From a virus, in IMG/VR virus record IMGVR_UViG_3300046167_000447, positions 1 through 64,000 of that record: 64,000 bases of DNA. One strand, given 5' to 3'. The notes beneath the pieces are model-generated. The model was not told the DNA's origin. It searched no databases and was given only the letters and a program-made list of their open reading frames with translations. The translations under genes were made by a program, and so were the position numbers. This document shows, in pieces, positions 323-14,969 of this stretch; the first letter of the stretch is position 1; each line of letters starts with the position of its first letter.

Positions 323-353
323 TTGACAATGTCGAAAATAATCACTACCTTTG
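323..353 (+). promoter_or_regulatory. Rightward early promoter
   Basis: TTG (323-325), then 20 nt, then TACCTTTG (346-353): both elements and the spacing match the Bacteroidota consensus TTG-N19/20-TAnnTTTG. It is the only clear + strand promoter of this type in the left region. It faces the long non-coding leader and the whole early gene block. A hairpin with 7-bp arms at 370-376 and 390-396, ending in TTTT, lies right at the start of the expected transcript. Confidence 0.7.
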
Positions 354-1539: not shown

Positions 1540-2160
1540 TACGAGGCTCTCTTCGCGGGTATCATTATAGGGATTTTTGAGGGGGAAAATTTTATTTGGC
1601 TCGTATCACATTTCTGCCCCATATTGCGAATGTCAAACGGAAAGGGGGTAACCCTAGATGAGTAACACATAGAAAGTCTTCCGTTAATGAGAGTGGAAAT
1701 CGAAAGACCACGAAACGAGTTCAACTGAACTGCCTCTAAGAAACGACCGCTTCGATAGTCACTAGACGGGGATTGCATCCCCACGGAGGTTCACCCAAGA
1801 CTGAGAGTAGCAATCGCTACGGCACATCTGCAACTCAGTTACAAGCCCTCCCAACGAACGCTGAACAGACCTAGAGTCCCTCGGGACAAGACGCACATTG
1901 ATACTGCGAGAGGGTCGAGAGTAAGCAACGGAACAAGTCAAAACATCGAATCGAGCAAGTCCCTTACAATATCGGGTAGAGTCTGCGTAACCGAGGTAGC
2001 GCCCCAAAATGACTCGTTGGAACACCATTCAACCCTAGACGATACGGAAACACTTGTAACCCATTCCCGTGGGGTGAGTTGTAGAGCATTCAGCGTTACG
2101 TAGAGTATGCAGATTGTGACTACCCAAGGGAGAGCGAGACTCCCCACCCCACCTAACCCG
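1540..2160 (+). ncRNA. Candidate large structured RNA
   Basis: About 600 nt that is richer in GC and in local self-complementarity than its surroundings and has no + strand gene. Examples are GGGGAT/ATCCCC around a TGC loop (1768-1782), GTAGC/GCTAC (1807-1820) enclosed by CTGAG/CTCAG (1801-1805 with 1834-1838), GTCC/GGAC (1876-1887), and CCCTC with GAGGG spanning 1846-1913. Minus-strand open frames across it have no leader and overlap each other. Large ornate phage RNAs (GOLLD, ROOL) also lie near tRNA-like sequences, but I cannot match this one to either. It ends in the tRNA-like fold at 2069-2152. Confidence 0.35.
2069..2152 (+). ncRNA. tRNA-like element 0 (degenerate T-arm)
   Basis: An 8-bp acceptor-like stem (2069-2076 GTGGGGTG with 2145-2152 CACCCCAC) encloses a 5-bp, 7-nt-loop arm at the T-arm position (2128-2144, GGGAG/CTCCC) that abuts the 3' acceptor strand exactly as in tRNA. 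The loop is AGCGAGA, not TTCGANT. The middle 51 nt can form a long arm (GTAG/CTAC, GCAT/ATGC). It lies just before the first ACCAC hairpin, in the place that clearer tRNA-like elements take before later genes. Confidence 0.4.
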
Positions 2161-2175
2161 AGCCGACCACGGCTC
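2160..2175 (+). promoter_or_regulatory. ACCAC-loop leader hairpin A
   Basis: Stem GAGCC/GGCTC with loop GACCAC, preceded by CTAACC and followed by ACAAA. It ends 15 nt before the ATG at 2191. First of six covarying copies. Confidence 0.75.
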
Positions 2176-2536: not shown

Positions 2537-2579
2537 AGCATATATGGTATTCAGCGGGGTTCGATTCCCCGCTATGCTA
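2537..2579 (+). ncRNA. tRNA-like minihelix 1
   Basis: Acceptor-like stem AGCATA (2537-2542) with TATGCT (2573-2578), a D-loop-like linker containing TGGTA, then a T-arm: GCGGGG, loop TTCGATT, CCCCGC (2554-2572), which abuts the 3' acceptor strand. There is no anticodon arm. Total about 43 nt, starting 7 nt after the stop codon and ending 6 nt before hairpin B. Confidence 0.7.
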
Positions 2580-2585
2580 CTAACC

Positions 2586-2601
2586 GACCCGACCACGGGT
2601 C
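2586..2601 (+). promoter_or_regulatory. ACCAC-loop leader hairpin B
   Basis: Stem GACCC/GGGTC with loop GACCAC, preceded by CTAACC and followed by ACAAA. It ends 15 nt before the ATG at 2617. The stem differs from copy A by compensatory changes. Confidence 0.75.
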
Positions 2602-2616
2602 ACAAATTCAATTGTT

Positions 2617-2889
2617 ATGAATATTATTTCATGCCCATCAGCACTCATTGGATGCAATGAGTCTAATTTCAATCTAATCACCAAGGACGTAGCGGTGGTT
2701 AAATTTCCTTGCAAGGATACATATATCCTATACAACAAGGAGCAACAGACCTACGGGGTCTTTGATAACGAGACCGATGAGTTGATATCCATAGGGTACA
2801 AAGGTCACGGATGCGTTATATTCGATAACCGATATTTCGGCAGAGATGAGTTCATCATCATAGAGACAATCTACAGAATGTCTCTCTAA
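2617..2889 (+). CDS. Early protein of unknown function
   Basis: 90 residues, start fixed by the hairpin B leader. Mixed beta-rich sequence with four cysteines (C6, C13, C32, C66) but no clear zinc motif. Its stop codon TAA shares its last A with the first base of tRNA-like element 2, so the gene and the RNA element are physically fused. No family recognised. Confidence 0.8.
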   Translation: MNIISCPSALIGCNESNFNLITKDVAVVKFPCKDTYILYNKEQQTYGVFDNETDELISIGYKGHGCVIFDNRYFGRDEFIIIETIYRMSL

Positions 2890-2931
2890 GCATATATGGT
2901 ACAACGGGAGGTTCGAGTCCTCCCTATGCTA
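2889..2931 (+). ncRNA. tRNA-like minihelix 2
   Basis: Same architecture as element 1 with a different T-stem. AGCATA (2889-2894) pairs with TATGCT (2925-2930), the linker contains ATGGTA, and the T-arm is GGGAGG, loop TTCGAGT, CCTCCC (2906-2924). The acceptor starts on the last base of the upstream stop codon. The different T-stem (compensated on both sides) supports a selected structure. Confidence 0.7.
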
Positions 2932-2937
2932 CTAACC

Positions 2938-2952
2938 GAGCCACCACGGCTC
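2938..2952 (+). promoter_or_regulatory. ACCAC-loop leader hairpin C
   Basis: Stem GAGCC/GGCTC with loop ACCAC (5 nt), preceded by CTAACC and followed by ACAAA. It ends 16 nt before the ATG at 2969. Confidence 0.75.
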
Positions 2953-2968
2953 ACAAATCCGATTGATT

Positions 2969-3355
2969 ATGAATTTTTCAATGAATTTTATGACCCGCCA
3001 ACTTGTACGTGCAAGAGGCATAGTGAACAACCGCATCGAGGCGGTAGAGTCCGACCTAACTAACGGGCTGAATGGAGGTCAAAGTCTGTCGCAGAAGTAC
3101 GAAGAGATAGGCATTCTGTTAGCCTTGAAACTTAGACTAAAGAAGTCTATCAAGGAAACGGCAGAAGAAGGGCACACTCGTAACTACCTAACGCTACCTA
3201 TAGCTGAGTTAGAAATGCTTGAGTTGTTGGTTGAGTCCAAGAAGTTGCAGATGGTTGCAAAGGTAGGCGAGATGGACTACGAGGCATCTCCCGATGAGAT
3301 ACAAGAGTTAGCTGATTTCTTCAGTATGGGTGTGATTATCAGCAAAATTCAATAG
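2969..3355 (+). CDS. Early helical protein of unknown function
   Basis: 128 residues. A TTG at 2963 is in frame, but the leader spacing argues for the ATG at 2969. Largely alpha-helical, charged sequence with heptad-like leucines around residues 45-100. No family recognised. It is followed by a two-armed tRNA-like fold at 3376-3429. Confidence 0.75.
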   Translation: MNFSMNFMTRQLVRARGIVNNRIEAVESDLTNGLNGGQSLSQKYEEIGILLALKLRLKKSIKETAEEGHTRNYLTLPIAELEMLELLVESKKLQMVAKVGEMDYEASPDEIQELADFFSMGVIISKIQ

Positions 3356-3375
3356 CTGACCCCTAATTTCACAAA

Positions 3376-3429
3376 GGGTAGTGGCTGACTGCAACAAGGT
3401 CAGCACCGACATCGTGGTCGGGCTACCCA
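3376..3429 (+). ncRNA. Two-armed cloverleaf-like RNA
   Basis: GGGTAG (3376-3381) pairs with CTACCC (3423-3428) and encloses two perfect hairpins: GCTGAC/GTCAGC (3384-3404, 9-nt loop) and CCGAC/GTCGG (3406-3421, 6-nt loop ATCGTG). This is the shape of a tRNA without a D-arm, but the T-loop consensus is absent. It occupies the slot between a stop codon and an ACCAC hairpin (3436-3450) that T-arm elements take elsewhere. Confidence 0.55.
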
Positions 3430-3435
3430 CTAACC

Positions 3436-3450
3436 GACCCACCACGGGTC
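3436..3450 (+). promoter_or_regulatory. ACCAC-loop leader hairpin D
   Basis: Stem GACCC/GGGTC with loop ACCAC, preceded by CTAACC and followed by ACAAA. It ends 16 nt before the ATG at 3467. Confidence 0.75.
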
Positions 3451-3466
3451 ACAAAACTGAATTGCT

Positions 3467-3700
3467 ATGGCTAAGGTCACAAGAAGTACGGCGGGTGCAA
3501 ACTTCCTCGCCAACAAGGATAAATTCAACGCAGAGTTCGTTGAGTTCAATGTCAATGAAAGACTCGTAGGTCGTGCAGAGCGCAAAGCCATGAAGCAAAG
3601 ACTTGCAGAGTACAACAGAATGAAAAATGCCCCAAAGACCCCCGTGACTGCGGGATTCGTTGAGGTGAAGTCTAACCTTAAATTTGCTTACGGAGTATGA
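3467..3700 (+). CDS. Small basic early protein
   Basis: 77 residues, start fixed by hairpin D. Rich in Lys/Arg and Ala, with a central helix (about residues 30-55) carrying many basic residues, so nucleic-acid binding is possible but not shown. The stop overlaps the next start as ATGA (3697-3700), indicating translational coupling. No family recognised. Confidence 0.75.
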   Translation: MAKVTRSTAGANFLANKDKFNAEFVEFNVNERLVGRAERKAMKQRLAEYNRMKNAPKTPVTAGFVEVKSNLKFAYGV

Positions 3701-4044
3701 GTGTTACTTTGAATACAATGATAGCCAAAGACCTATTCAATCTATGTGTTGATGGCGGTGCAAGTGTGTTAGGGAAGTTCGAGAATGACCGAGGTCAGCG
3801 TTTGCGTTTCTACGAGCACCCAATCTATGGGGAGGATTGCCCTATAATCGTAGCGTTCATAGACTACGGAGTTGCGTTCAACTCTACGTTCTATGATTTG
3901 CACGATATGACACAAAAGAACTGCGATGTTGTTTCCGTTGAGACTTGCATCAAGTTTGGGTTTGACCCTAATGCGGATGCGGACTACGTGCCGAGATACG
4001 TTGATGGGTATATGTTTTGTAAGTATGAAGAAAATGAAGATTGA
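3697..4044 (+). CDS. Early protein of unknown function
   Basis: 115 residues, coupled to the upstream gene by an ATGA overlap. Beta-rich, acidic overall, with several aromatic residues and cysteines and an acidic C-terminal tail (EENED). No motif recognised. Confidence 0.75.
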   Translation: MSVTLNTMIAKDLFNLCVDGGASVLGKFENDRGQRLRFYEHPIYGEDCPIIVAFIDYGVAFNSTFYDLHDMTQKNCDVVSVETCIKFGFDPNADADYVPRYVDGYMFCKYEENED

Positions 4045-4046
4045 TT

Positions 4047-4217
4047 ATGGATGGTTTTACTAAGAATGTTGTCGCTTACTTGTTTTGTTGCGTAGCATCG
4101 TTTCTGTCTTTTGTAGTGGCGTACTGCGGTCACCCACCATTTTTTTTGCTTAGTCTATTTAGCTTTGCTTGTAGCTTTTGTATTTTGTTGAACTCTAAAA
4201 TGAATGAGAATGAGTGA
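4047..4217 (+). CDS. Small two-span membrane protein
   Basis: 56 residues starting MDGFTKNVVAYLFCCVAS. Two hydrophobic segments (about 8-27 and 30-48) are separated by CGHPP, and the C-terminus (NSKMNENE) is hydrophilic. It starts 2 nt after the upstream stop and its last bases (ATGAGTGA) contain the next start, the same overlap pattern as 6977-7102 and 7294-7464. Cysteine-rich (6 Cys). Likely an early inner-membrane protein, function unknown. Confidence 0.65.
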   Translation: MDGFTKNVVAYLFCCVASFLSFVVAYCGHPPFFLLSLFSFACSFCILLNSKMNENE

Positions 4218-4506
4218 AGTTGTTGAAGTGAGAGACAATGTCTCTGTGAGATTTGCTTTCGGGCAGAACCAAAAAGTAGACCTTGGTAGAGCGGTCTATA
4301 TGGTGTATAGCCACGAGGATGTTTACCACCCTCAGCTACTGAAAGTCTTCCATAGATTGGAGGATGCCGTTGAGTATGCGAGTGCTTACGTTGAAGACAG
4401 AACGGACTCGTATTCTTGGATGGACTTCGAGATGCTCATCTATCAAGAGATGATTGCATTCGACTCCCATCTGCACGAGTTCGATGGCGATGACGATGAG
4501 GAATAG
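4210..4506 (+). CDS. Acidic early protein of unknown function
   Basis: 98 residues. Two starts are possible: 4204 (MRMSEV) and 4210 (MSEV). I prefer 4210 because it gives the ATGAGTGA overlap with the preceding stop that recurs among neighbours. The C-terminus is very acidic (EFDGDDDEE). No family recognised. tRNA-like element 3 follows 5 nt after the stop. Confidence 0.7.
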   Translation: MSEVVEVRDNVSVRFAFGQNQKVDLGRAVYMVYSHEDVYHPQLLKVFHRLEDAVEYASAYVEDRTDSYSWMDFEMLIYQEMIAFDSHLHEFDGDDDEE

Positions 4507-4511
4507 ACTCA

Positions 4512-4579
4512 TAAGGGTAAATGGTTGTCGAGTGTTCACTATCACTTGGCTCTGCGGGGTTCGATTCCCCGCTACCTTA
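4512..4579 (+). ncRNA. tRNA-like element 3 (with extra arm)
   Basis: TAAGG (4512-4516) pairs with CCTTA (4575-4579); one bulged G allows two more pairs. Next come TGGTT (D-loop-like), a hairpin with loop TTCACTAT at the anticodon-arm position (4530-4547), and a T-arm GCGGGG, TTCGATT, CCCCGC (4554-4572) abutting the acceptor. This is the most complete tRNA mimic here, but the middle loop has 8 nt and lacks a normal anticodon-loop pattern, so it is unlikely to decode. The T-arm is identical to element 1. Confidence 0.65.
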
Positions 4580-4590
4580 CAAGTTTAACC

Positions 4591-4606
4591 GACCCTACCA
4601 CGGGTC
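4591..4606 (+). promoter_or_regulatory. ACCAC-loop leader hairpin E
   Basis: Stem GACCC/GGGTC with loop TACCAC, preceded by TTAACC and followed by ACAAA. It ends 16 nt before the ATG at 4623. Confidence 0.75.
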
Positions 4607-4622
4607 ACAAAATTGAATAACT

Positions 4623-5990
4623 ATGGCTCGATTTGTAGCAGATGTTTGGGCACTTGCCCGATTGGAATTGAATCTTCAAGGATTCGAGATTATTGAAATG
4701 GCTTCCAAAAGCCAAGACTTATTCCGTAAGGCGGGAATCAACACCGCATCAACGGGTAAGATGAGTACGGGACAAGCCGTGAAGAAGATAGAGGCGGGTA
4801 GTAAATCCCACCCTATGGAAAGAGGAGGAGGCGAGGGAGTTGATTTGATTTTCGCTCTGCGTGATTCGGATGGTACGTTAGCCGTGTATAGCCAAGATAA
4901 ACCAAGCGGAGTTCAATACGATTGGGATTTACTTACCGAGGGTAAGGAATTTGGATGGTCTATAAAATCGGATGTCATTTCAAGATTCCGCTTTAGCCAT
5001 CATCAGCTATTCGGAGTTAGAGGAAAGATGTACAGATTCGAGGAGAAAGGAACAGAATTAAAAACGCAGACCGAGTCTGCACAAACCACAAAGAGTATGG
5101 GACAACAGACTGACCCCTCAGCGCTAATTGCTCAAGCGCTTGAAATGATGAGCAAAGGTGGTTCAATTGATGAGTCTCAAGTGGAGGCTATTGTTGAGCG
5201 CAAGTTGAAAGCGGTTCAGCCACTCAAGGTTGAGGTCGTATCTGCTACGTCTACCAAGCGAGTCGAGATGGCTCACAAGAGTTTCGCTGATGGCGTTGCG
5301 CTCTTGGGCTTAGGCAAGAATATCGCCTTAATTGGCGAGGCGGGTAGCGGTAAGTCTTTCGGGGCTATCCAAATGGCTCAGTCGTTAGACTTAGACTACG
5401 TAGTTGAGTCTTGTCACGGCAAGATGCAGTCATTCGATTTGGTCGGGGCTATGTCTCCAACCACGGGTAGCTACATCAGCACCAAGCTACGGGATGCCTA
5501 CGAGAATGGTAAGGTTCTCATCCTCGATGAGTTTGACCGCTCCAACACGGAGACCACTATCGCATTGAACGGAGTGTTAGCGGGTGATTGCTACGGATTT
5601 CCCGATGGGATGGTGACTCGCCACAAGGACTTCCGAGTGATTGCTTGTCAAAACACATTCGGAACGGGAGCATCCAAGACCTACGCATCAGCTAAGGCTC
5701 AAGATGGCTCTACGCTGACTCGATTCACTCGATTAGAGTGGAACATAGATGCTCACTTAGAGAGAGCTATCTGTGGTCACAACGATGTCACACGAGCGGT
5801 GCAGATGGTTCGCAAGAATGCTAAGGATAACGGCTACGACCAAATCCTTATCACTCCTCGCCAATGTATGGATGCTAACCAAATGGTTGATGCCCTTGGG
5901 TGGGATTTGAAAAAGGCTATCAACTTCTCTTGTCTCAATGGCTTGGCTGATGATATCAAGAAGAGATTACTCAATGGAGTGTCTCTCTAA
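4623..5990 (+). CDS. MoxR/CobS-like AAA+ ATPase
   Basis: 455 residues, start fixed by hairpin E. The N-terminal 200 residues are unfamiliar. The C-terminal AAA+ module has Walker A GEAGSGKS (238-245), Walker B LILDEFD (299-305) and a sensor-1 Asn in ACQN (344), the layout of MoxR/CobS-type remodelling ATPases. Such ATPases act as ring hexamers on a partner, often a VWA-type protein; the next gene (6093) is the obvious candidate. Phages of several hosts carry similar pairs early in their genomes, role unsettled. I infer remodelling of a host or phage complex. Confidence 0.85.
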   Translation: MARFVADVWALARLELNLQGFEIIEMASKSQDLFRKAGINTASTGKMSTGQAVKKIEAGSKSHPMERGGGEGVDLIFALRDSDGTLAVYSQDKPSGVQYDWDLLTEGKEFGWSIKSDVISRFRFSHHQLFGVRGKMYRFEEKGTELKTQTESAQTTKSMGQQTDPSALIAQALEMMSKGGSIDESQVEAIVERKLKAVQPLKVEVVSATSTKRVEMAHKSFADGVALLGLGKNIALIGEAGSGKSFGAIQMAQSLDLDYVVESCHGKMQSFDLVGAMSPTTGSYISTKLRDAYENGKVLILDEFDRSNTETTIALNGVLAGDCYGFPDGMVTRHKDFRVIACQNTFGTGASKTYASAKAQDGSTLTRFTRLEWNIDAHLERAICGHNDVTRAVQMVRKNAKDNGYDQILITPRQCMDANQMVDALGWDLKKAINFSCLNGLADDIKKRLLNGVSL

Positions 5991-6008
5991 GGCGTTCACT
6001 ATCACGCT
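5991..6008 (+). promoter_or_regulatory. TTCACTATCA hairpin (copy 2)
   Basis: GGCGT pairs with ACGCT around TCACTATC, directly after the TAA at 5990. The 10-mer TTCACTATCA (5995-6004) recurs at 4535-4544 and 9142-9151, each time in a hairpin loop next to a T-arm element but with a different stem. Confidence 0.5.
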
Positions 6009-6010
6009 GA

Positions 6011-6050
6011 GGGTGCATGGTGTAAGAGGGGGTTCGACTCCCCCTCACCC
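6011..6050 (+). ncRNA. tRNA-like minihelix 4
   Basis: GGGTG (6011-6015) pairs with CACCC (6046-6050). The linker has CATGGTGTAA (D-loop-like GG), and the T-arm is AGGGGG, loop TTCGACT, CCCCCT (6027-6045) abutting the acceptor. No anticodon arm. CTAATC and hairpin F follow within 12 nt, the same order as elements 1 and 2. Confidence 0.65.
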
Positions 6051-6061
6051 CACTACTAATC

Positions 6062-6077
6062 GAGTCTACCACGACTC
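6062..6077 (+). promoter_or_regulatory. ACCAC-loop leader hairpin F
   Basis: Stem GAGTC/GACTC with loop TACCAC, preceded by CTAATC and followed by ACAAA. It ends 15 nt before the ATG at 6093. This is the most diverged stem and it is still fully paired. Confidence 0.75.
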
Positions 6078-6092
6078 ACAAATAGATTGCTT

Positions 6093-6980
6093 ATGCGATA
6101 TGAAATCAAAGGGAAACTATGCAAGACCCACACCACGTTCAGCGAGTTCGTTGAGATGTCCAACAGAGAGGACTTAGTCTACGAGAGTTCGGATGCAAGA
6201 ACGGGAGCAAGAGATAGTTTCTACGGGAACATCAAGTCTTACCAAGAGATGTACGATGCTTGTTACAATGGTATGGGCGTTAAGAAGATGCTTAAGGCTC
6301 GTGCAGACCTCAACAACTTAATGAACCACGAGGTTGAAGAGCCACGCAAGGCTATCGTTGGAGAGACCCTAAACGTAGGGGCTTACTGCGCGGGTAATCC
6401 TCACCACTTCTACAAAGACGCTGATGAGTACGGAAGGCCACGGGTACACATAGTCTATAGCACTAATGCGGTAGCGGATGTTAGGTCTTCTCAGTTCACG
6501 AGACACGGGGCATCAATCTGTGCTTTGGTTGACCAACTTGGTGAGCAAGTCGATGTGAAGATTAGCCTGTACATCACAAACAAATGGGTTTTCGGTGGTA
6601 ATGGTTGTCAAATCGTTACTATCAAAGACTACGAGGATGTAATTGACGTGCCCCGTGTGTCAGCTACGGCTCATCCAAGTTTCTTCCGTAGAATAGGTTT
6701 TGCTTGGTTCGAGAATGCAGACAAGCTAATCCAAAAGGGATTAGGAACGGGTACGGGAGGCTCGTACACAGGTAGTGACAGACCTTACGTAATCAAGGAC
6801 GATGAGTTCATGGATTGGGTTGGAATCGAGAAAGGAGAGATGATGATTGACTTTCCCGCTCCCGATGAATACCAATTCAAAGATGATGAGGGTACTGCTT
6901 ATTGGCTGAAACAATCTACCAAGAAGATTGAGAAAGCGGTTGAGGAGGAAAGTAGTATCTGTAAATTATTCGGATTATGA
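6093..6980 (+). CDS. Likely partner of the MoxR-like ATPase
   Basis: 295 residues. A TTG at 6087 is in frame, but hairpin F spacing supports the ATG at 6093. The middle region (about residues 120-210: VHIVYSTNAVADV, then SICALVDQLGEQVDVKISLYI) has alternating strands and helices that resemble a degenerate VWA-like fold, as expected for a MoxR/CobS partner, but no complete MIDAS (DxSxS) is visible. Similar genes follow MoxR-like ATPases in other phages. No enzymatic motif seen. The stop overlaps the next small ORF (ATGA, 6977-6980). Confidence 0.65.
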   Translation: MRYEIKGKLCKTHTTFSEFVEMSNREDLVYESSDARTGARDSFYGNIKSYQEMYDACYNGMGVKKMLKARADLNNLMNHEVEEPRKAIVGETLNVGAYCAGNPHHFYKDADEYGRPRVHIVYSTNAVADVRSSQFTRHGASICALVDQLGEQVDVKISLYITNKWVFGGNGCQIVTIKDYEDVIDVPRVSATAHPSFFRRIGFAWFENADKLIQKGLGTGTGGSYTGSDRPYVIKDDEFMDWVGIEKGEMMIDFPAPDEYQFKDDEGTAYWLKQSTKKIEKAVEEESSICKLFGL

Positions 6981-7102
6981 TTTATTTAGACTTGGCGGTG
7001 GGCATCGTGCAAACGATGTTCGCCTTTAGTATTTTAGGACAAGCAACGCTGACTGCGGTGTTGCTAATTATAAACTCGTTAAAAAGTAAAAAAGATGAGT
7101 AA
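6977..7102 (+). CDS. Tiny membrane protein
   Basis: 41 residues starting MIYLDLAVGIVQTMFAFSIL. One long hydrophobic helix (about 3-34) ends in a lysine-rich tail (SLKSKKDE), suggesting an inner-membrane anchor with a cytoplasmic C-terminus. It overlaps the upstream gene by ATGA and the downstream gene by ATGAGTAA, which strongly supports it as real despite its size. Confidence 0.6.
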   Translation: MIYLDLAVGIVQTMFAFSILGQATLTAVLLIINSLKSKKDE

Positions 7103-7301
7103 GGATTTGACTTTTGCAATTGTCCTTGAGGACAATACGCTAACAGACTTGACCACCCGATTGGTGGGTGAGTTGGTTACTATGGGGCTTATTACTGATT
7201 ACAATTTCTCGGAAACGGAAACGGAAATCGAGGCTCATAATGTGATAATGGACTTTCTTCAAAATGAGATAAGTGTATTAAAAGCACAGACTGATGAGTG
7301 A
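7095..7301 (+). CDS. Small acidic early protein
   Basis: 68 residues, mostly helical and acidic (MSKDLTFAIVLEDNTLTDLT at the N-terminus). It overlaps the preceding stop and the following start by 8 nt. No family recognised. Confidence 0.65.
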   Translation: MSKDLTFAIVLEDNTLTDLTTRLVGELVTMGLITDYNFSETETEIEAHNVIMDFLQNEISVLKAQTDE

Positions 7302-7464
7302 TGGAAAGTTAGCACGGATAAATGGTTGGAGAGTCGTGCCTCCAACAGACAAGACCCATGAGTACAGGCTAACGGGTTTTACCTTAGGTAACAAGGTGGA
7401 GGTAGTCTGTTGTGCAAATGGACAGAGATTTGATACAATGCTAATACACAAGAATAAATTATGA
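7294..7464 (+). CDS. Small basic early protein
   Basis: 56 residues (MSDGKLARINGWRVVPPTDK onward, ending NKL). The start lies in the preceding gene's end (ATGAGTGA) and the stop overlaps the next start (ATGA, 7461-7464), so it fills the gap exactly. Predicted beta-rich (LTGFTLGNKVEVVCCANGQRF), perhaps a small OB or SH3-like barrel. No family recognised. Confidence 0.6.
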   Translation: MSDGKLARINGWRVVPPTDKTHEYRLTGFTLGNKVEVVCCANGQRFDTMLIHKNKL

Positions 7465-7760
7465 GAGATTTTATCGTGGGCACACTTATACTATCGAGCG
7501 GAGCGTGGGCATCGCTCGGGTTCTACAACAGAGATTTCGGGATGCTAATTATAGGAGCGATGTTTTCGCTACTTCTTCTGCTCTTTGTTGTTGGTGAGTT
7601 CATCTACAAAAGATGGATTCTAAGTAGACTACCTAAGTTCGTAGCTATCAGCTACGGAGATGAGTGGTTCTTGAGAGATGAGCGTGGTGTTATGCACCAA
7701 TCATACAGAAAAGAGGTCAGCGACCTAATGTTAAGTGGACAAGTAACTAAATTTGAATAG
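7461..7760 (+). CDS. Two-span membrane protein
   Basis: 99 residues. Two hydrophobic segments (about 5-22 and 27-49) are followed by a soluble domain of about 50 residues (KRWILSRLPKFVAISYGDEW onward). Topology suggests a short periplasmic hairpin and a cytoplasmic C-terminal domain. No family recognised. It belongs to a run of early membrane proteins (4047, 6977, 7461, 7762). Confidence 0.7.
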   Translation: MRDFIVGTLILSSGAWASLGFYNRDFGMLIIGAMFSLLLLLFVVGEFIYKRWILSRLPKFVAISYGDEWFLRDERGVMHQSYRKEVSDLMLSGQVTKFE

Positions 7761-7761
7761 C

Positions 7762-7881
7762 ATGCTAGTAGCAACTGCAATCATTTCATTCGTAGCTAAC
7801 ACAGGAGTGTTGGCTTATGTAGGTTATCAAAGCGGTAACCAAGTATCAACTTTAAAAGCAAGGAGCAATGCCCGTAAATAA
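7762..7881 (+). CDS. Tiny membrane protein
   Basis: 39 residues: MLVATAIISFVANTGVLAYV and a short basic tail (STLKARSNARK). One hydrophobic span. Starts 1 nt after the upstream stop and overlaps the next ORF, whose Shine-Dalgarno-like AGGAG lies within this gene. Confidence 0.5.
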   Translation: MLVATAIISFVANTGVLAYVGYQSGNQVSTLKARSNARK

Positions 7882-8047
7882 AGAGATATGGTTCGCTTAC
7901 CGAGGCGTACAAGATGCGGGTTACTTCAATGTGTTTGACCCAAGGGCGAGAGCGTTGGCTAACGAAGTCAACGATATGAATATCACAAAAGAACAATGGA
8001 CTTTTGTTATTACTAATTACGATAAATTAAAAGAGACCTATGAGTAG
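7868..8047 (+). CDS. Small early protein of unknown function
   Basis: 59 residues beginning MPVNKEIWFAYRGVQDAGYF. It has one of the few good Shine-Dalgarno sequences here (AGGAG, 2 nt before ATG) and ends within the next start (ATGAGTAG). Compact alpha/beta composition; no family recognised. Confidence 0.6.
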   Translation: MPVNKEIWFAYRGVQDAGYFNVFDPRARALANEVNDMNITKEQWTFVITNYDKLKETYE

Positions 8048-8393
8048 TCTAGTTGATGTGCGAGAACTTCCGATGCACACAAAAATGGAAGTAGCGGTTG
8101 GACACGCTTTTGATGTCCTAAACGGAAAGGTCAACTCTGTTTTGTTTGACTCGGATGCTCAACCACTTGATGAGGCAGAGCGTTCATTCTACCTAATCTC
8201 TCCCGACACTATGGTTGTCGTAGAGGGTGCTGAGGAAATTCGCAACATCATCGAGGAGGACTTCAAGTTTATCCAAGGTCGTGATGTGAAGTTACTAATC
8301 AACAGACTCTCCGAGAATGTGGTTGGTATTGCAGTCTGTCACTTTGATAAAGATTGCTTGAGTGTGTCTTCCTACAAGGGCGAGGAAGAGTAG
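8040..8393 (+). CDS. Acidic early protein of unknown function
   Basis: 117 residues, acidic, starting inside the previous stop (ATGAGTAG). The alpha/beta pattern has a helical centre (EEDFKFIQGRDVKLLINRLS) and an acidic tail (KGEEE). No catalytic motif seen. A 15-bp hairpin (8401-8439) follows directly. Confidence 0.7.
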   Translation: MSSLVDVRELPMHTKMEVAVGHAFDVLNGKVNSVLFDSDAQPLDEAERSFYLISPDTMVVVEGAEEIRNIIEEDFKFIQGRDVKLLINRLSENVVGIAVCHFDKDCLSVSSYKGEEE

Positions 8394-8400
8394 ACCCTAT

Positions 8401-8439
8401 AGTATGGAGGGCGGTGTGTAGCAGACCGCTCTCTGTACT
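8401..8439 (+). terminator. 15-bp hairpin without T-tract
   Basis: 8401-8415 pairs with 8425-8439 over 15 positions (including three G-T pairs) around a 9-nt loop, 8 nt after a stop codon. It lacks the U-run of an intrinsic terminator, so it may stabilise mRNA 3' ends, act as a processing site, or be a weak terminator. Confidence 0.4.
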
Positions 8440-8487
8440 TAATGATTAACCGCTACATCTTAAACAACAACTTTAATTCATATTCAA

Positions 8488-8670
8488 ATGAACAATTCAA
8501 TTATTTTCAAGTTTGGCTCACTAAAATTAGTAGGAACGCAAAAGGCTGATGGTAGCACTTTCAAGGTGTTTTGGGACGGCATATACCAAGAGTTAATCAC
8601 ATCCAAGGAGAAAGACTTAGATGTTGCCTCGGAGCGTGTTACTGAGCAGTTAATGGGTGTTATACTTTAA
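8488..8670 (+). CDS. Small early protein of unknown function
   Basis: 60 residues (MNNSIIFKFGSLKLVGTQKA at the N-terminus), beta-rich first half and helical end. It is preceded by an A/T-rich leader (ACTTTAATTCATATTCAA) like that of the ERF gene at 11109. No family recognised. Confidence 0.6.
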   Translation: MNNSIIFKFGSLKLVGTQKADGSTFKVFWDGIYQELITSKEKDLDVASERVTEQLMGVIL

Positions 8671-8682
8671 CACCAAAGAGAG

Positions 8683-9096
8683 ATGAGCAACACAACATCT
8701 TGGGGAGGAATCCCTTATAGCAGAGACTACTACATAGAGTTAGCAGAACTGCAAGACTTTGAGATGGTTAATCAGCTATTGGCTTATGCGATTGCTGAGT
8801 CCGAGTCTACGATAGAATACTACGTTAGTGTAGCTGACACGGAAGGTTACTTCTCGGAATCCGATGCTTGTTCGTACGGAGACCTTACAAGGGATATAGC
8901 TTACTCGGATATGGTGGATGACATCACCGAGACATTCCAAAAGGCTAACAGACTCGATTCAGTTCAGTCTGTTAATGATTTATACAAGAGTAAATTCAAG
9001 GACATCACCTTGCTTACTCCTTACGTGTTTGAAGAACTGATGGAAGAGATATCAAGCAACGTCGGTTTAGTGGTAGACTTAGAGCCTTGGGGCTAA
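8683..9096 (+). CDS. Acidic early protein; 3' end doubles as RNA element
   Basis: 137 residues, acidic and helical with many Tyr and Ser. The start follows the repeated TTTAACACCAAAGAGAG leader (8666-8682). The last codons also form the 5' acceptor strand of tRNA-like element 5 (9070-9077), so coding and RNA constraints overlap. No family recognised. Confidence 0.75.
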   Translation: MSNTTSWGGIPYSRDYYIELAELQDFEMVNQLLAYAIAESESTIEYYVSVADTEGYFSESDACSYGDLTRDIAYSDMVDDITETFQKANRLDSVQSVNDLYKSKFKDITLLTPYVFEELMEEISSNVGLVVDLEPWG

Positions 9097-9129
9097 TAAT
9101 AGGGGCGGGTTCGAATCCCGCTCTACCAC
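9070..9129 (+). ncRNA. tRNA-like element 5, overlapping a gene end
   Basis: Perfect 8-bp acceptor: GTGGTAGA (9070-9077, inside the upstream gene) with TCTACCAC (9122-9129). A 4-bp hairpin AGCC/GGCT (9083-9094) lies within, and a canonical T-arm GCGGG, loop TTCGAAT, CCCGC (9105-9121) abuts the acceptor. No anticodon arm. The upstream stop TAA (9094-9096) is within the element. A TTCACTATCA hairpin follows at 9136. Confidence 0.65.
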
Positions 9130-9135
9130 CTCAGT

Positions 9136-9158
9136 AGAATGTTCACTATCAACATTCT
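9136..9158 (+). promoter_or_regulatory. TTCACTATCA hairpin (copy 3)
   Basis: AGAATGTT pairs with AACATTCT (8 bp) around CACTATC. The longest stem of the three TTCACTATCA hairpins. The following 60 nt also fold: CCCTC/GAGGG enclosing CCCGA/TCGGG (about 9161-9210). Confidence 0.55.
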
Positions 9159-9244
9159 CACCCTCAGCGACCCCGACTAAAGTGGTTTTATAAATTCGGG
9201 ATAGAGGGTAACAATATTTATTCACCAATTTTAACTCAGTTGTT

Positions 9245-9658
9245 ATGATTAACACTAAAGAAAAGACCTTAGAGTATTGGCTCGGAGAAAGGTTAAAGAA
9301 GAGCGGAGAGGTTTCGCAGAGCGCAAAACTAAGAAACAGACTTGATGCTTGGTTCATCAAGAAAGGATTCAAACCAATTCACATAGCGTATAGTGAAAAC
9401 TTCTCGGAGTATTACAACAACACGACTTCACAAGTAATCTCTGTGAATGAGATAGACTACTTTGATGATAGTCTGTTAAGTAGTAACTCTTGGGTTTTGG
9501 CGCACGGATTCCTTATGCCGTATAATGCTCTATACGACTTTGGCGTTATGTGGGAGATTCGTGAAAAGTCTTACACAGATGTAGATAACTCAACTGAACG
9601 GCAGTTGATTGACACTTTAGAATTATTAATTGAAAATGGAATAGCTTATGAACTTTGA
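9245..9658 (+). CDS. Early protein of unknown function
   Basis: 137 residues starting MINTKEKTLEYWLGERLKKS. A basic helical N-terminus is followed by a mixed alpha/beta region and an acidic helical end. The stop overlaps the next gene by 11 nt. No family recognised. Confidence 0.7.
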   Translation: MINTKEKTLEYWLGERLKKSGEVSQSAKLRNRLDAWFIKKGFKPIHIAYSENFSEYYNNTTSQVISVNEIDYFDDSLLSSNSWVLAHGFLMPYNALYDFGVMWEIREKSYTDVDNSTERQLIDTLELLIENGIAYEL

Positions 9659-10055
9659 TGACATTATGAGTGGGGGACTCACACCCAAGTCAAGAATGGG
9701 AGAAAACATAACCGATATATTCGGTGTTGACTCGGACTTCGCAATGAAGACAACGAGGGATTTAGTCAAGCTAACAACTGACACGGAATCTACTGATGCT
9801 GACATCATTCAGTCTGCATTGGCGATGTGTGAAACCAAGGAAGAGTTGGCTGTTGTCTTGCACTTACACACTAAAACTTTGGTTAGCAAAATGGCTGACC
9901 AATTCGAGGAAGCAAGTGCGCTCTTAGAGGATACTAAGGATGTCCTTGAATCGTTGGGAGAAGATGTCTTGATGAGATACGCTGAAGGAATGATGCAGAA
10001 ACTCATGGAGAGAATGGGCGGTAGTCTTGACGACTTAAACTTAGATGAAGAGTAG
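9648..10055 (+). CDS. Acidic helical early protein
   Basis: 135 residues, strongly acidic and almost wholly helical (about residues 45-130), with coiled-coil-like EEASALLEDTKDVLESLGED. The overlapping start indicates coupling with the upstream gene. It is the last gene before the regulatory element at 10070-10142. It resembles small acidic phage proteins that bind host factors, but that is only composition. Confidence 0.7.
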   Translation: MNFDDIMSGGLTPKSRMGENITDIFGVDSDFAMKTTRDLVKLTTDTESTDADIIQSALAMCETKEELAVVLHLHTKTLVSKMADQFEEASALLEDTKDVLESLGEDVLMRYAEGMMQKLMERMGGSLDDLNLDEE

Positions 10056-10069
10056 TTACTTAGTAACTC

Positions 10070-10142
10070 ACACGTGCACGTGTACGCACTATATCATATA
10101 CCATTGTAGAGAGAGTAGCATATATGCTACTACTCTCTCTAC
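10070..10142 (+). promoter_or_regulatory. Palindrome + TATATCATATACCAT + bulged hairpin (copy 1)
   Basis: A 14-bp palindrome ACACGTGCACGTGT (10070-10083), the motif TATATCATATACCAT (10090-10104), one spacer base, then a long hairpin: outer 9-bp stem (10106-10114 with 10134-10142), inner palindromic stem (10115-10130) and a 3-nt bulge (10131-10133). A sister element with the same parts in the same order is at 44817-44883. It precedes the small operon starting at 10164. I infer a phage-specific promoter whose transcript begins with the hairpin. Confidence 0.55.
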
Positions 10143-10163
10143 TTAACTATTAATAATCACATT

Positions 10164-10361
10164 ATGAAAGTATTTGTAATAAAATTACTAACCCCTAACA
10201 GAAGAACGGGAGGATTCATCTCCGATGTCGTTGGGGTTTTTGACATTGAGTCTGTTGCTTTTGAGGAATCCGAAAGGATTGACAACGAACAGAAAGAAGA
10301 TTGGGGTGATGGAGGATTTACTACTATCGAGCCATTCGAATTAAATGAATCGACCTTATGA
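10164..10361 (+). CDS. Small acidic protein
   Basis: 65 residues, first gene after the shared regulatory element. The N-terminus (MKVFVIKLLTPNRRTGGFIS) is beta-like and the rest acidic. Overlaps the next gene by ATGA. No family recognised. Confidence 0.65.
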   Translation: MKVFVIKLLTPNRRTGGFISDVVGVFDIESVAFEESERIDNEQKEDWGDGGFTTIEPFELNESTL

Positions 10362-10654
10362 GTAGAATGCACAACCTAAGGGTAGATACCTACAAAGTAA
10401 CAGAATGCACATCTGTTAACTTAATCTCCTATGAAGATGACCTTGGTTCTACTAAGGTTATGATGGAAGGAGAGACATACTATTCCGTTGAGGGTAACAT
10501 TGCAGTTATGTCTGTGATGGATGAACAGACCATAGAGATATGGGATGAACGTGCTGAGAAAGGCATTGAGAACTTATTGTTTACGGATTATGAATCTGTA
10601 AGTAAGTATTGGGGTGATATAAAAGTGATATACAATTTAAACGAGAGAAAATGA
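10358..10654 (+). CDS. Protein of unknown function
   Basis: 98 residues, acidic, beta-rich, coupled at both ends by ATGA overlaps (10358 and 10651). No recognised motif. Confidence 0.65.
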   Translation: MSRMHNLRVDTYKVTECTSVNLISYEDDLGSTKVMMEGETYYSVEGNIAVMSVMDEQTIEIWDERAEKGIENLLFTDYESVSKYWGDIKVIYNLNERK

Positions 10655-11019
10655 CAGAATCAAATGTTTATGGGGTCTTGATAGACCCTATTAATGGAGT
10701 GACCATCAAAGAATTCGGTGGAGAGATTGGATTAGATGAGATGTATTCAGCAATCGATTGCGAATACGTTGAGCTATCAGTCCTAACCGATGAGCTAGAC
10801 CTATGGGTCGATGAGGAAGGATTCATCAACGGAGCAACACAGAGGGTTGGAGTGTTCCAAGTTCAAGATGCGGATGGCGAGAGACTCGGTCAGCCAATGT
10901 ATGCGGGTAAGGGTCTTATCCTTGCCTCCGACAACGAAGGTCGCATTGTAGGTCTAACGAAAGAACGGGCAGAGGCTATAGTCGGTAGCTTAATGTTTCA
11001 AACATCTATGTCTCTATGA
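10651..11019 (+). CDS. Protein of unknown function
   Basis: 122 residues, acidic. About residues 85-115 contain GKGLILASDNEGRIVGLTKE, a pattern like small phage proteins that report cognate or immediate-early functions, but I cannot assign a family. ATGA overlap with the gene before. Confidence 0.65.
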   Translation: MTESNVYGVLIDPINGVTIKEFGGEIGLDEMYSAIDCEYVELSVLTDELDLWVDEEGFINGATQRVGVFQVQDADGERLGQPMYAGKGLILASDNEGRIVGLTKERAEAIVGSLMFQTSMSL

Positions 11020-11090
11020 TAACAGAATCAACCAATGGAGAATTTATTTTTACGTTGCCTTGTTTTAGGGCAACATTTCATTTATATTAA
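11016..11090 (+). CDS. Possible 24-residue peptide
   Basis: MITESTNGEFIFTLPCFRAT followed by FHLY. It starts in an ATGA overlap with the previous stop and fills the gap before the ERF leader. The same bases contain a hairpin (GTTGCC 11054-11059 with GGCAAC 11069-11074) that could instead be a weak terminator. Too short to be certain. Confidence 0.25.
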   Translation: MITESTNGEFIFTLPCFRATFHLY

Positions 11091-11108
11091 TTTAAACAAC
11101 TTCAATTT

Positions 11109-11681
11109 ATGAGTAAACTTCAAACTGCTTTAATCAAGGTTCAATCGGAACTAAAAGCACCTAAGAACCAAAGAAACAACTTTGGGAAGTACAACTACCG
11201 CTCTGCTGAGGACATTCTCGAGGCGGTTAAACCTTTGCTATCTGCAAACGGATTGACAATGACAATCACGGACTCTGCTGAAGAGCTAGGCGGTATGGTG
11301 GTTATCACCTCTACTGCAACGATTACAGATGGTACTGACTCTGTTTCCTCATCTGCTCAAGCGGGTGTTGACCCTAACAGAAAAGGTATGGACATTGCTC
11401 AGTCATTCGGCTCATCGAGTTCTTATGCTCGTAAGTATGCAATGAACGGACTTCTTCTTATCGATGATACTAAGGATGCTGATGCTACCAATACTCACGG
11501 ACAGACTGCCTCAAGCAGACCCGCAACGTCTCAAGGCGATGATGGTGATTGGTTCTCGAAAGCCATTGAATATATAAAGAACGCTAACGACAAGAACCAA
11601 GCGTTCGAGTTAGTCAAGAACAAGTACGGAGCAACTGCAAGTGAAAAGCAGATTGGCGCACTAAAGAAGTTCGTTAAGTAA
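11109..11681 (+). CDS. erf: ERF-family single-strand annealing protein
   Basis: 190 residues. The N-terminal 130 residues match the ERF (P22 Erf-like) recombinase pattern: helical start (LQTALIKVQSELKAPKNQ), NFGKYNYRSAEDILEAVKPLL, a beta sheet with ITSTATITDG, and the signature region SFGSSSSYARKYAMNGLLLI near residues 97-116. A flexible linker and a C-terminal helical segment follow. It anneals complementary ssDNA for phage recombination and replication. It overlaps the exonuclease start by 1 nt and lies two genes before the SSB, a classic recombination module. Confidence 0.9.
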   Translation: MSKLQTALIKVQSELKAPKNQRNNFGKYNYRSAEDILEAVKPLLSANGLTMTITDSAEELGGMVVITSTATITDGTDSVSSSAQAGVDPNRKGMDIAQSFGSSSSYARKYAMNGLLLIDDTKDADATNTHGQTASSRPATSQGDDGDWFSKAIEYIKNANDKNQAFELVKNKYGATASEKQIGALKKFVK

Positions 11682-12484
11682 TGCAGTTCGCACAAGCAAT
11701 ACAAGAGAAAACGGGGAAGGGGTATGTATCCGCTTCCTCGTTGAAGTATGCTATCACGGGTAGCAAAGACTTCGATATGATGGCTTGGGAACTCAATATG
11801 AAAGGAGAACTCAAGAAGACTTCTAAGGCGTTCACATTCGGTGGATTCTTTGATAGTCTGTTGTTAACTCCCAATGAAACTTGGGACAGATACGTTGTCT
11901 TAAAGGATGATGAGATTTGTGAAGAGATTGGCGGTAAGAACCCTCGTGCTACTAAGCGTTACAAAGAATGGAAAGCAGAGCAGATGGGTGACAAGGAGTT
12001 AATCACACAAGTCGAGTACAATGTAGCTAAGGTTATGTGCCGTAGGTTACGCAACTCCGAGGTCGTTGACCACGACACGGGAGAGATTGTAAAGCTAGAC
12101 AGATTCATTCAAGGCAATGCTCAACAAGAGTTTAACACTTGGATTGGAGATGTGCCCGTACGAGGCTTCTTAGATGTCTTGGGCGATGGATTCATTACCG
12201 ATGTCAAGACTTCATCACGTAGTCTGTCTCAGTTCAAGTGGGATGTTCGTGACTACAACTACGACCTACAAGCGTGGATGTACTGCGAGGTCTACGGAAC
12301 TAAAGACTTCTATTGGTTAGTACAGACTAAAGACAAACCTTATACTTGTGGTCTGTTCAAAGCTACTGATGAGACTCTTGCTAACGGAGAGCGCAAGTTC
12401 TACGATGCGGTTGGAAACATCAGTAATTGGTTAGTGGAAGAACCTAAAGACACATCAACATTTGCCGTACAAGGCTCAATTTAA
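11681..12484 (+). CDS. PD-(D/E)XK recombination exonuclease
   Basis: 267 residues. RecE/RecB-type nuclease signature: GFLDVLGDGFITDVKTSS (Asp165, then Asp174-x-Lys176) and a downstream YDLQAWMYCEVYG (Gln197) as in the C-terminal motif of this superfamily. Predicted to resect double-stranded DNA 5' to 3' and hand ssDNA to the ERF protein immediately upstream, like lambda Exo with Bet. The 1-nt overlap suggests translational coupling. Confidence 0.85.
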   Translation: MQFAQAIQEKTGKGYVSASSLKYAITGSKDFDMMAWELNMKGELKKTSKAFTFGGFFDSLLLTPNETWDRYVVLKDDEICEEIGGKNPRATKRYKEWKAEQMGDKELITQVEYNVAKVMCRRLRNSEVVDHDTGEIVKLDRFIQGNAQQEFNTWIGDVPVRGFLDVLGDGFITDVKTSSRSLSQFKWDVRDYNYDLQAWMYCEVYGTKDFYWLVQTKDKPYTCGLFKATDETLANGERKFYDAVGNISNWLVEEPKDTSTFAVQGSI

Positions 12485-12496
12485 AATCAAGTAAGT

Positions 12497-12904
12497 ATGA
12501 ATATGTTTAGACTTAGGTTAGTGCTGAGGACACTTAAAAGAACCCTCAACAAAGTTATCTATGGTAGACACAAGGTCAACTATAATAACTCTACGCTCCT
12601 TTTCTTGGAGTCGGCTATGGAGAATATGTATGGAGTAGACTTAAACGTCCCGCAACACGGACACAAAGAAGTGCAACTCAAAAGATTCTTTATTAACTTC
12701 TTAGTCGCAGAAACAGATTGGAGCGTAATGGAAATCAGCAGAAGATTTAACTCTGCGGGTATCATAGCCAATGGATTATCGAGAAGAACTATGCAGTATT
12801 ACGTCAACTCTCACGCAGACGAACTGAAAGAAATTTCTCCTAATTCAGTAACTTACGCAAGAGCATACAGAACATTCACAAAAACTTTAATTTCAATTCT
12901 TTAA
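12497..12904 (+). CDS. DnaA-domain-IV-like DNA-binding protein
   Basis: 135 residues. The basic N-terminus (RLRLVLRTLKRTLNKVIYGR) is followed by a helical region (KEVQLKRFFINFLVAETDWS, then MEISRRFN, then SRRTMQYYVNSH) with the spacing of the DnaA C-terminal helix-turn-helix. A second protein of similar layout is at 16140. Likely binds DNA in replication initiation or as a regulator, between the recombination nuclease and the SSB. The assignment is by pattern only. Confidence 0.5.
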   Translation: MNMFRLRLVLRTLKRTLNKVIYGRHKVNYNNSTLLFLESAMENMYGVDLNVPQHGHKEVQLKRFFINFLVAETDWSVMEISRRFNSAGIIANGLSRRTMQYYVNSHADELKEISPNSVTYARAYRTFTKTLISIL

Positions 12905-12907
12905 ATT

Positions 12908-13228
12908 ATGAGCAATCAAAATCAAAACTATCAAAACGACCCATTAGTAGGATTCACTAACGCACCACGTGTTGAGTTACGAATCTCATTCACAGAGGCA
13001 GAACTCAATGACCTCAAGCAGTATCTAACGGGCAAGGACACCAAGCGTGTGTACTTAACAATCAAGTCGGGTGAGAAGAAAGACAAGAGCGGTACATACA
13101 ACATCTGCTCAGTCTACGACCCGAACAAAGGTCAAGGCACTCAAGCATCTCAGCAGTTTGCACAGAGCCAAGGCGCACCCGCACCGAGCCAAGCAAACAA
13201 CACGAATTCGGATGACTTACCATTCTAA
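12908..13228 (+). CDS. Single-stranded DNA-binding protein
   Basis: 106 residues. A short beta-rich core (RVELRISFTEAELNDLKQYL to YNICSVYDPN) is followed by a Gln/Ala/Pro-rich flexible linker and the C-terminal tip SDDLPF, which matches the DDxPF tail that SSBs use to recruit partners. Shorter than typical bacterial SSBs (about 170). It lies downstream of erf and the exonuclease. An intrinsic terminator follows 24 nt after the stop. Confidence 0.8.
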   Translation: MSNQNQNYQNDPLVGFTNAPRVELRISFTEAELNDLKQYLTGKDTKRVYLTIKSGEKKDKSGTYNICSVYDPNKGQGTQASQQFAQSQGAPAPSQANNTNSDDLPF

Positions 13229-13252
13229 GTCGCAGACTTAATAACTACATCA

Positions 13253-13280
13253 GCCTCGCTCCATCGGAGCGGGGCTTTTT
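13253..13280 (+). terminator. Intrinsic terminator after SSB gene
   Basis: Perfect 10-bp GC-rich stem (13253-13262 with 13266-13275) with an ATC loop, followed by TTTTT (13276-13280). The strongest terminator in the early block. Confidence 0.85.
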
Positions 13281-13283
13281 AAT

Positions 13284-13322
13284 GCAGAGGATGGTCAATG
13301 TGGTTCGACTCCACGCTCTTGC
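13284..13322 (+). ncRNA. tRNA-like minihelix 6
   Basis: GCAGAG (13284-13289) pairs with CTCT(T)GC (13316-13322), a linker with ATGGT, and a T-arm TGTGG, loop TTCGACT, CCACG (13299-13315). Same order as elements 1, 2 and 4, but it follows a terminator rather than a stop codon and has no ACCAC hairpin after it, so it may be a relic or belong to read-through transcripts. Confidence 0.5.
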
Positions 13323-13918: not shown

Positions 13919-14044
13919 ATGAATGAGCAAGAGAAAGTCACAAAGATTCTATTTGCCTTGATGGTATTTACAATTGTGCGTCTAGCCTTTATTGTTATTG
14001 GATTAATGTATGTCTATGCACACCCTACAATAAGTTTAAGATAA
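13919..14044 (+). CDS. Small membrane protein, paralogue A
   Basis: 41 residues: charged start (MNEQEKVTKI), one hydrophobic span (LFALMVFTIV onward), then MYVYAHPTISLR. A close paralogue is at 14847-14969; a stretch of over 30 nt around ACAAAGATTCTATTTGCC is identical in both, so this is a recent local duplication. The leader is AAAACCAAAGAGA, a member of the repeated leader family. Confidence 0.55.
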   Translation: MNEQEKVTKILFALMVFTIVRLAFIVIGLMYVYAHPTISLR

Positions 14045-14722: not shown

Positions 14723-14854
14723 ATGAAAATGACAAACGAAGAGATTTACGAGAGAGTAATGGGACACAAGCCAAATAAAGATTTTGGCATTAAGGGTTCA
14801 TTTAGTTGGAATGATATAAACGCTTTGATGAATGAGGCAAAGAGAGATGAGTGA
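14723..14854 (+). CDS. Small protein with repeated leader
   Basis: 43 residues: MKMTNEEIYERVMGHKPNKD, then a short helix and EAKRDE. Preceded by TTTAAAACCAAAGAGAG (14706-14722) and overlapping the next start by 8 nt (ATGAGTGA). Resembles a short helical adaptor; no family recognised. Confidence 0.5.
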   Translation: MKMTNEEIYERVMGHKPNKDFGIKGSFSWNDINALMNEAKRDE

Positions 14855-14969
14855 GAGAGAAAAAGCCACAAAGATTCTATTTGCCTTGATGGTATTTACA
14901 ATCTGCACTTTAGCACTAATCGTATTAGCATTGATGTACGTATACGCTCACCCTACAATTAATTTATAA
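14847..14969 (+). CDS. Small membrane protein, paralogue B
   Basis: 40 residues (MSEREKATKILFALMVFTIC then hydrophobic, ending YAHPTINL). Paralogue of 13919-14044: same length, same TKILFALMVFTI core and same YAHPTI end, differing in the middle of the membrane span. Begins inside the previous stop. Confidence 0.55.
   Translation: MSEREKATKILFALMVFTICTLALIVLALMYVYAHPTINL

Follow-up and report, generated by a model that had tools for sequence, protein, structure and literature searches.

Several RNAs that share parts of the tRNA fold are already known. In the t-elements of plant mitochondria and in mitochondrial tRNA punctuation, a tRNA-like acceptor and T-arm stand at the junctions of polycistronic transcripts, where cutting by tRNA-maturation enzymes is proposed. 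The mascRNA and menRNA (MALAT1, MEN beta; RF01684) are anticodon-less and tRNA-like with short arms and are known as substrates of RNase P and RNase Z, and the tRNA-like domain of transfer-messenger RNA (tmRNA; RF00023) consists of an acceptor, a stem-less D-loop and a T-arm, also without an anticodon arm. In phages, T4 rnaC (species 1) and the C4 antisense RNA of P1 and P7 have a T-arm or tRNA-like structure, and in the early mRNA of T7 structured sites between the early genes are cut by RNase III to give gene-sized mRNAs. The present analysis concerns six tRNA-like elements (E1 to E6) located between positions 2537 and 13322 of IMG/VR virus record IMGVR_UViG_3300046167_000447, of which 64,000 of the 65,574 bases (the window) were analysed. 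An original prediction, based on the sequence alone, had described them as anticodon-less elements at the ends of early genes.

These elements differ from each of the systems above. The t-elements are organellar, whereas the phage elements are many per genome, mostly lack a D-stem and overlap stop codons, and their cutting is only inferred. The mascRNA and menRNA belong to vertebrate long non-coding RNAs, possess a small D-arm and are single elements at an RNA 3' end; with the RF01684 model E1 scored 19.8 bits, below the gathering threshold of 42.5. Unlike tmRNA, the phage elements have neither a message-like domain nor an encoded tag and are present in several copies in one mRNA, and with the RF00023 model only the E5 T-arm matched (15.8 bits, against a gathering threshold of 47). 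T4 rnaC and the C4 RNAs are single discrete RNAs and not a series punctuating mRNAs, while the T7 sites have another structure and depend on another enzyme. The elements fail the defining tests of tRNA, tmRNA and mascRNA, have those features of punctuation elements that can be judged from sequence, and are best regarded as a further form of tRNA-like processing element. No report of such elements in phages was found in a search of an open-access library.

Structure and position of the elements

The motif GGTTCGANTCC occurs exactly six times in the 65,574-base record, always on the plus strand and at the six places predicted, with no occurrence on the minus strand and none for the reversed control. 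A T-arm scan requiring 5 paired bp recovered the same six sites on the plus strand, and the limits of some elements were slightly refined. Every T-arm is a perfect 5-bp stem with the loop TTCGANT and has an acceptor strand upstream. From 5' to 3', the elements comprise an acceptor of 6-8 bp, ATGGT (five of six), a short linker or an extra hairpin, the T-arm and the 3' acceptor strand, followed by one unpaired base, mostly A, and then C-A or T-A. The T-stems differ and remain paired (GCGGGG, GGGAGG, AGGGGG, GCGGG, TGTGG), as originally described, and the D-loop-like TGGT reported for five elements is an ATGGT immediately 3' of the acceptor strand in E1-E4 and E6; in E5 the TGGT sits within the acceptor.

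All six elements are on the coding strand, at gene junctions, in agreement with the location first proposed. E1 (2537-2579) has the acceptor AGCATA/TATGCT, ATGGT, a 6-bp T stem and the loop TTCGATT, and the same element is present in relative L014. The first acceptor base of E2 (2889-2931) is the final A of the upstream TAA stop codon. E3 (4514-4579) contains, in the place of the anticodon arm, an extra hairpin with an 8-bp stem and an 8-nt loop, TTCACTAT, which is not an anticodon arm. E4 (6011-6052) follows the AAA ATPase gene, and E5 (9070-9129), with an 8-bp acceptor GTGGTAGA/TCTACCAC, begins inside the upstream open reading frame (ORF) and overlaps its 3' end. E6 (13284-13322) is placed between a terminator and a small lipoprotein-like gene. 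The acceptors of E4 and E6 have one mismatch or bulge each. Upstream stop codons are at -56 to +26 relative to the elements, adjoining or overlapping the acceptor in most of them, and the next start codon is mostly 17-45 nt past the element 3' end.

The elements share with canonical tRNAs the acceptor helix stacked on a 5-bp T-arm and the TTCRANY loop; the D-arm and the anticodon arm with a 7-nt loop are absent from E1-E6 and from their relatives, as the original prediction had stated for the anticodon arm. Rfam gave no match in the window at gathering thresholds. ARAGORN missed E1-E6, except for a tRNA-Tyr(gta) called at 9038-9130 over E5. This call was rejected as false because its 'anticodon' lies inside the 8-bp acceptor strand and because three relatives have a plain anticodon-less element at that junction. 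Fold z-scores for plain secondary structure were about -2.7 to -3.4 for five element regions and -0.6 for E5. An alternative pairing of acceptor and tail, TGGTA with TACTA, was observed in E1, E2, E4 and L014.

Conservation, covariation and distribution

Relatives, retrieved by means of the ATPase and the helicase, do keep elements at the same junctions, the point on which the original prediction had staked its own refutation. At the E6 junction an element is present in five phages (window, L021, L024, L008, L011), where it always follows a terminator and precedes a small lipoprotein-like gene; the acceptors differ (GCAGAG, GCGGAG, AGGGTG, CGAGAA and GGGGGT), every one still paired. At the E5 junction it is present in four phages (window, L008, L009, L011), the acceptor of the relatives being different and paired. 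In the relatives the elements are intergenic and co-directional with their neighbours. Like punctuation elements of the t-element kind, they are placed at the gene junctions of a co-transcribed unit, in the sense strand. A covariance model, the type of check originally proposed, was built from six copies; searched against 1.08 Mb of relatives, it matched 31 times (up to E=10), in every case on the helicase-sense strand. The early regions of Elemovirus (L089) and MW202828 (L088) yielded no such element.

Among 21 distinct cores, 97.8% of the pair cells were paired, compared with 63.2% when the 3' letters were dealt anew and at most 62.4% after sliding, the first figure being inflated to some degree because part of the set came from a scan requiring pairing. 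Of the 11 pairs, 10 showed two-sided changes; the cells changed on both sides numbered 80, whereas shuffling gave 20.2 (none of 500 shuffles reaching 80), and the covariation score was 0.976 against 0.229. The acceptor and T stem form a stack of 12 bp in 17 of the 23 elements of the full set and of 13 bp in the other six, since the base that separates the two is itself paired, on either side, in 22 of the 23. In tRNAs this stack measures 12 bp in elongators and 13 bp in tRNA-His. The T-loop and the fixed stack length, as in substrates of RNase P and RNase Z, are present in 22 of the 23 elements; in the remaining one a base within the stack is unpaired.

As the 23-element set was partly selected by pairing, a pattern scan of viral contigs, which leaves everything free except GTATGGT, the T-loop and two pairs of the T stem, is the less biased test. 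GTATGGT-N4-11-GGTTCGANTCC was found in at least 120 stretches of viral contigs, compared with 7 matches in the full scan with scrambled T-loop letters. Among the matches listed, 95 were distinct; their outer three T-stem pairs were 91-99% paired (41-53% shuffled), and 34 had an in-register acceptor of 6 bp or more, where 4.25 were expected. Also among the matches listed, 87 of 122 were intergenic by crude ORF calling, mostly co-directional with their neighbours. A stricter pattern gave at least 32 matches in viral contigs and 7 in 257 Gb of prokaryote genomes, 5 of the latter being true elements by pairing. Strand, shuffle, scrambled and reversed controls exclude a chance origin. The class spans phages of several hosts, among them flavobacteria, cyanobacteria and Weissella. 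At 12 of the wider viral loci Rfam detected at gathering thresholds nothing besides true tRNAs, manA and PhotoRC-II, ARAGORN recognised none of the wider viral elements apart from one odd call, and blastn with the L171 and L133 elements plus flanks, and with L190, matched no named phage.

Two cultured phages have related unannotated RNAs. In Cellulophaga phage phi38:1 (L090, NC_021796), a tRNA-like RNA of about 141 nt at 20678-20818 (minus strand) has a D-like arm and a T-arm without an anticodon arm, and is 28 nt upstream of rtcB (RNA ligase). Maribacter phage Panino (L087, PP540027) has a 91-nt anticodon-less tRNA-like element at 4941-5031, between CDS0022 and CDS0023.

True tRNA genes and elements exchange places. 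In five cyanophage-like contigs, one of which carries manA and PhotoRC-II RNAs, an element is at the same place as the tRNA-Arg of cyanophage P-TIM40 and overlaps the same stop codon; its T stem is ATAGG/CCTAT instead of GTTGG/CCAAC, every variable T-stem pair being changed on both sides, and the D and anticodon arms are lost. Similarly, the flavophage element at L039 3142 is at the position of its relatives' tRNA-Arg(cct). These two positions are what would be expected of functionless, decaying tRNA genes left at former phage tRNA sites. Decay is already disfavoured, and very improbable, given the compensatory changes in acceptor and T stem, the recurrent GG motif right after the acceptor, which is not a tRNA D-arm, the several copies per genome and the filling of the same junctions in many phages.

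Other slots are shared with a three-way-junction RNA (window 3376-3429, plus strand), composed of a 7-bp outer helix, a hairpin with loop TGCAACAAG and a 5-bp hairpin (loop ATCGTG) that continues the outer helix without a break, the two together forming a 12-bp stack. Among 10 distinct relatives it was 99.4% paired (81.3% shuffled), with two-sided changes in 12 of 17 pairs, and it was also located at L007 11363; L008 1762 and 3911; L009 8280 and 8835; L010 8728 and 9914; L011 1899 and 4531; and L014 11385. This covarying RNA, with loops TGNRAYAAG and RTCRTG and placed at gene junctions, is a new one. Its first loop (TGNRAYAAG) fits the UNNRA T-loop motif, and the ACTAA tail of the elements is also found 3' of these RNAs, which are without TGGT. 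The slot after the ATPase contains a T-arm element in the window (E4) and L009 and the three-way-junction RNA in L007, L008 and L011. The slot before the ATPase contains E3 in the window, the three-way junction in L010-L011 and, in L007-L009, a different folded element in which the outer stem is the same and a hairpin is T-loop-like. The series of tRNA-like elements originally proposed for early genes is present, but the claim was too narrow, as several structured RNAs fill the junctions and many unrelated viruses carry the class.

Candidate processing by tRNA-maturation enzymes

RNase P measures the T-arm/acceptor stack and depends on the T-loop but can do without the D-loop, and the elbow is likewise the point from which RNase Z measures (PMC4919913); phage C4 RNA and T4 gene 32 mRNA are RNase P substrates (PMC11143913). 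The features that RNase P and RNase Z read are kept in the elements, and those required for decoding are lost. It is considered moderately probable that the elements act in cis as tRNA-like processing signals, punctuating polycistronic mRNA of the phage, and are cut by the tRNA-maturation enzymes of the host. Each element would fold as the top half of a tRNA, with a 12-13 bp acceptor/T stack and a T-loop into which the GG would dock, as G18 and G19 of the D-loop do in tRNA, and host enzymes recognising just this half would cut at the element. RNase Z would cut after the discriminator base, so that the message of the next gene would begin about 20-45 nt before its start codon, and RNase P could cut before the acceptor, more or less efficiently. 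Where the stop codon is in the acceptor strand, the 3' cut alone would be favoured, and the upstream message would keep the folded element as a cap at its 3' end.

The 3' tails resemble those of the tRNA genes of the same phages, giving the 3' end predicted for the substrate class: no CCA is encoded, and position 74 is C in 16 of 21 elements, against 62% of 407 phage tRNAs, whose ends were assigned by ARAGORN and are blurred by one base. Other observations weigh against processing. At position +1, 67% of the elements have A, whereas 64% of the tRNAs of these phages have G, and at position -1 U occurs in 38% of the elements compared with 68% of the tRNAs; the elements thus lack the bases typical of an RNase P cleavage site (U-1, G+1), and recognition by this enzyme may be poor. 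The stop codon overlaps the acceptor in E2 and in elements of L008, L009, L011 and L130, so that a 5' cut by RNase P would remove the stop of the upstream gene, at a cost; the true tRNA-Arg of P-TIM40 likewise overlaps its stop codon. Plain secondary-structure folding favours competing pairings in E1 and E4, and neither RNase P nor RNase Z would obviously accept as a substrate the three-way-junction RNA that shares slots with the elements. The original likeness to substrates of both enzymes is reinforced by the constant 12-13 bp stack and the tRNA-Arg replacement, and weakened in its RNase P half by A+1 and by the stop codons in the acceptor. Tails like those of tRNAs with an atypical 5' side, and stops in the acceptor, both favour a model in which RNase Z would cut at the 3' side, leaving the element as a 3' cap, over full excision.

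The main rival is that the elements are uncut structural insulators, in which a compact tRNA-elbow fold would block exonucleases and stabilise the upstream message (at its 3' side) or the downstream one (at its 5' side). The exchange of tRNA-like elements with three-way-junction RNAs and other folded elements at homologous junctions would fit this, as would the several kinds of hairpin at early junctions. It is nevertheless rated unlikely: the exact T-loop, the 12-13 bp stack, the tRNA-like 3' tails and the exchange with true tRNAs exceed the needs of a generic barrier, and the three-way-junction elements retain the same 12-bp stack. Excision as free mini-tRNAs acting in trans, for example as decoys for host factors that bind or cut tRNAs, is an improbable alternative. 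T4 rnaC would be the precedent, a discrete stable RNA of unknown function (PMC9697503) that ends in the T-arm CCGGG TTCGAAT CCCGG, and several copies are present per phage; on the other hand, placement between genes and the spacing to the next start codon suggest a role in cis, and mini-tRNAs would have no shared identity, because acceptor sequences differ between copies.

A wider proposition, to which equal weight is given for and against, is that host-dependent processing characterises a widespread, undescribed class of viral cis-RNAs: tRNAs reduced to acceptor and T-arm would have multiplied between genes, allowing phages to cut their own operons with the essential tRNA-maturation enzymes of the host, and other folds, such as the three-way junction, would have evolved to the same 12-bp ruler. 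If true, this would be, as far as found, the first case of tRNA punctuation in viruses; it would account for what becomes of the long early transcripts of phages and would test how little of a tRNA the maturation enzymes require in cells. The elements also constitute a covarying RNA family overlooked by current annotation (Rfam, ARAGORN), and suggest how non-decoding RNA signals could arise from phage tRNA genes.

The early region and its other structured RNAs

The window derives from a marine bacterial virus; its terminase is similar in sequence to those of Flavobacterium, Cellulophaga and Maribacter phages. A promoter of Bacteroidota type, TTGACA-N-TACCTTTG, at 323-353 (plus strand) is the sole strong match of this type on the plus strand within the early region and probably marks where the early operon begins. 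Directly 5' of E6 there is an intrinsic terminator (13252-13281, plus strand). The early region is bounded by these two features, which are consensus matches and not mapped ends, with E1-E5 inside the operon and E6 directly past the terminator.

The first early gene is preceded by a 1.8-kb non-coding leader (360-2185, especially 1618-2160) that looks like a large structured RNA. Positions 1618-2331 are 75% identical to L014 10149-10858, 1336-1457 are kept in L007 and L008, and Rfam gave no match in 360-2185. Before the first early gene, at 2069-2152 (plus strand), there is a junction element of another sequence family, with an 8-bp outer helix GTGGGGTG/CACCCCAC and a contiguous 5-bp hairpin with loop AGCGAGA; it has a 13-bp stack and a fold z of -5.0, and is kept with compensatory changes in L007-L011 and L014.

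A 5'-leader hairpin with an ACCACG-type loop (2160-2175, plus strand) precedes TCACAAA and the start codon. It recurs at 2586-2601, 2938-2952, 3436-3450, 4591-4606 and 6062-6077, and ACCACGNNTCACAAA has six exact copies on the plus strand, in these hairpins. The stems (GAGCC/GGCTC, GACCC/GGGTC, GAGTC/GACTC) are compensatory and the loop is constant. E1-E4, like other early junctions, have this conserved second hairpin downstream, just ahead of the start codon. The leader hairpins are 10-20 nt before start codons, in a phage of hosts not reliant on Shine-Dalgarno sites.

With a conserved hairpin between element and start codon, and a position in early-gene leaders, the elements might be regulatory, either antiterminators like the HK022 put RNAs or tRNA-binding or translation-coupling switches for the next gene. 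This is judged slightly less probable than mini-tRNAs and a little more so than decay, as E6 comes after a terminator, not before one, and unrelated downstream genes are served in many phages.

Additional hairpins are present at the junctions. A TTCACTATC hairpin (5991-6008, plus strand) is between the ATPase stop codon and E4, with related hairpins in E3 and at 9136-9156. The stretch 3' of E5 (9133-9240) is structured, with a TTCACTAT hairpin and then an outer stem CCCTC/GAGGG around AGCGACC..AAGTGGTT, and is conserved at L008 6357-6460, L009 13982-14090 and L011 6431-6530. In L039 (about 2900 and 3045) and L052 (about 4480 and 4620), junction hairpins have a constant CTGACA loop containing the stop codon, stems that vary yet pair, and ATG directly after. 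A long near-perfect hairpin, GTAGAGAGAGTAGCATATATGCTACTACTCTCTCTAC, is between genes at 10103-10141 of the window. A small membrane-protein gene is duplicated in a tandem-like arrangement at 13919-14038 and 14847-14966, with 78% DNA identity.

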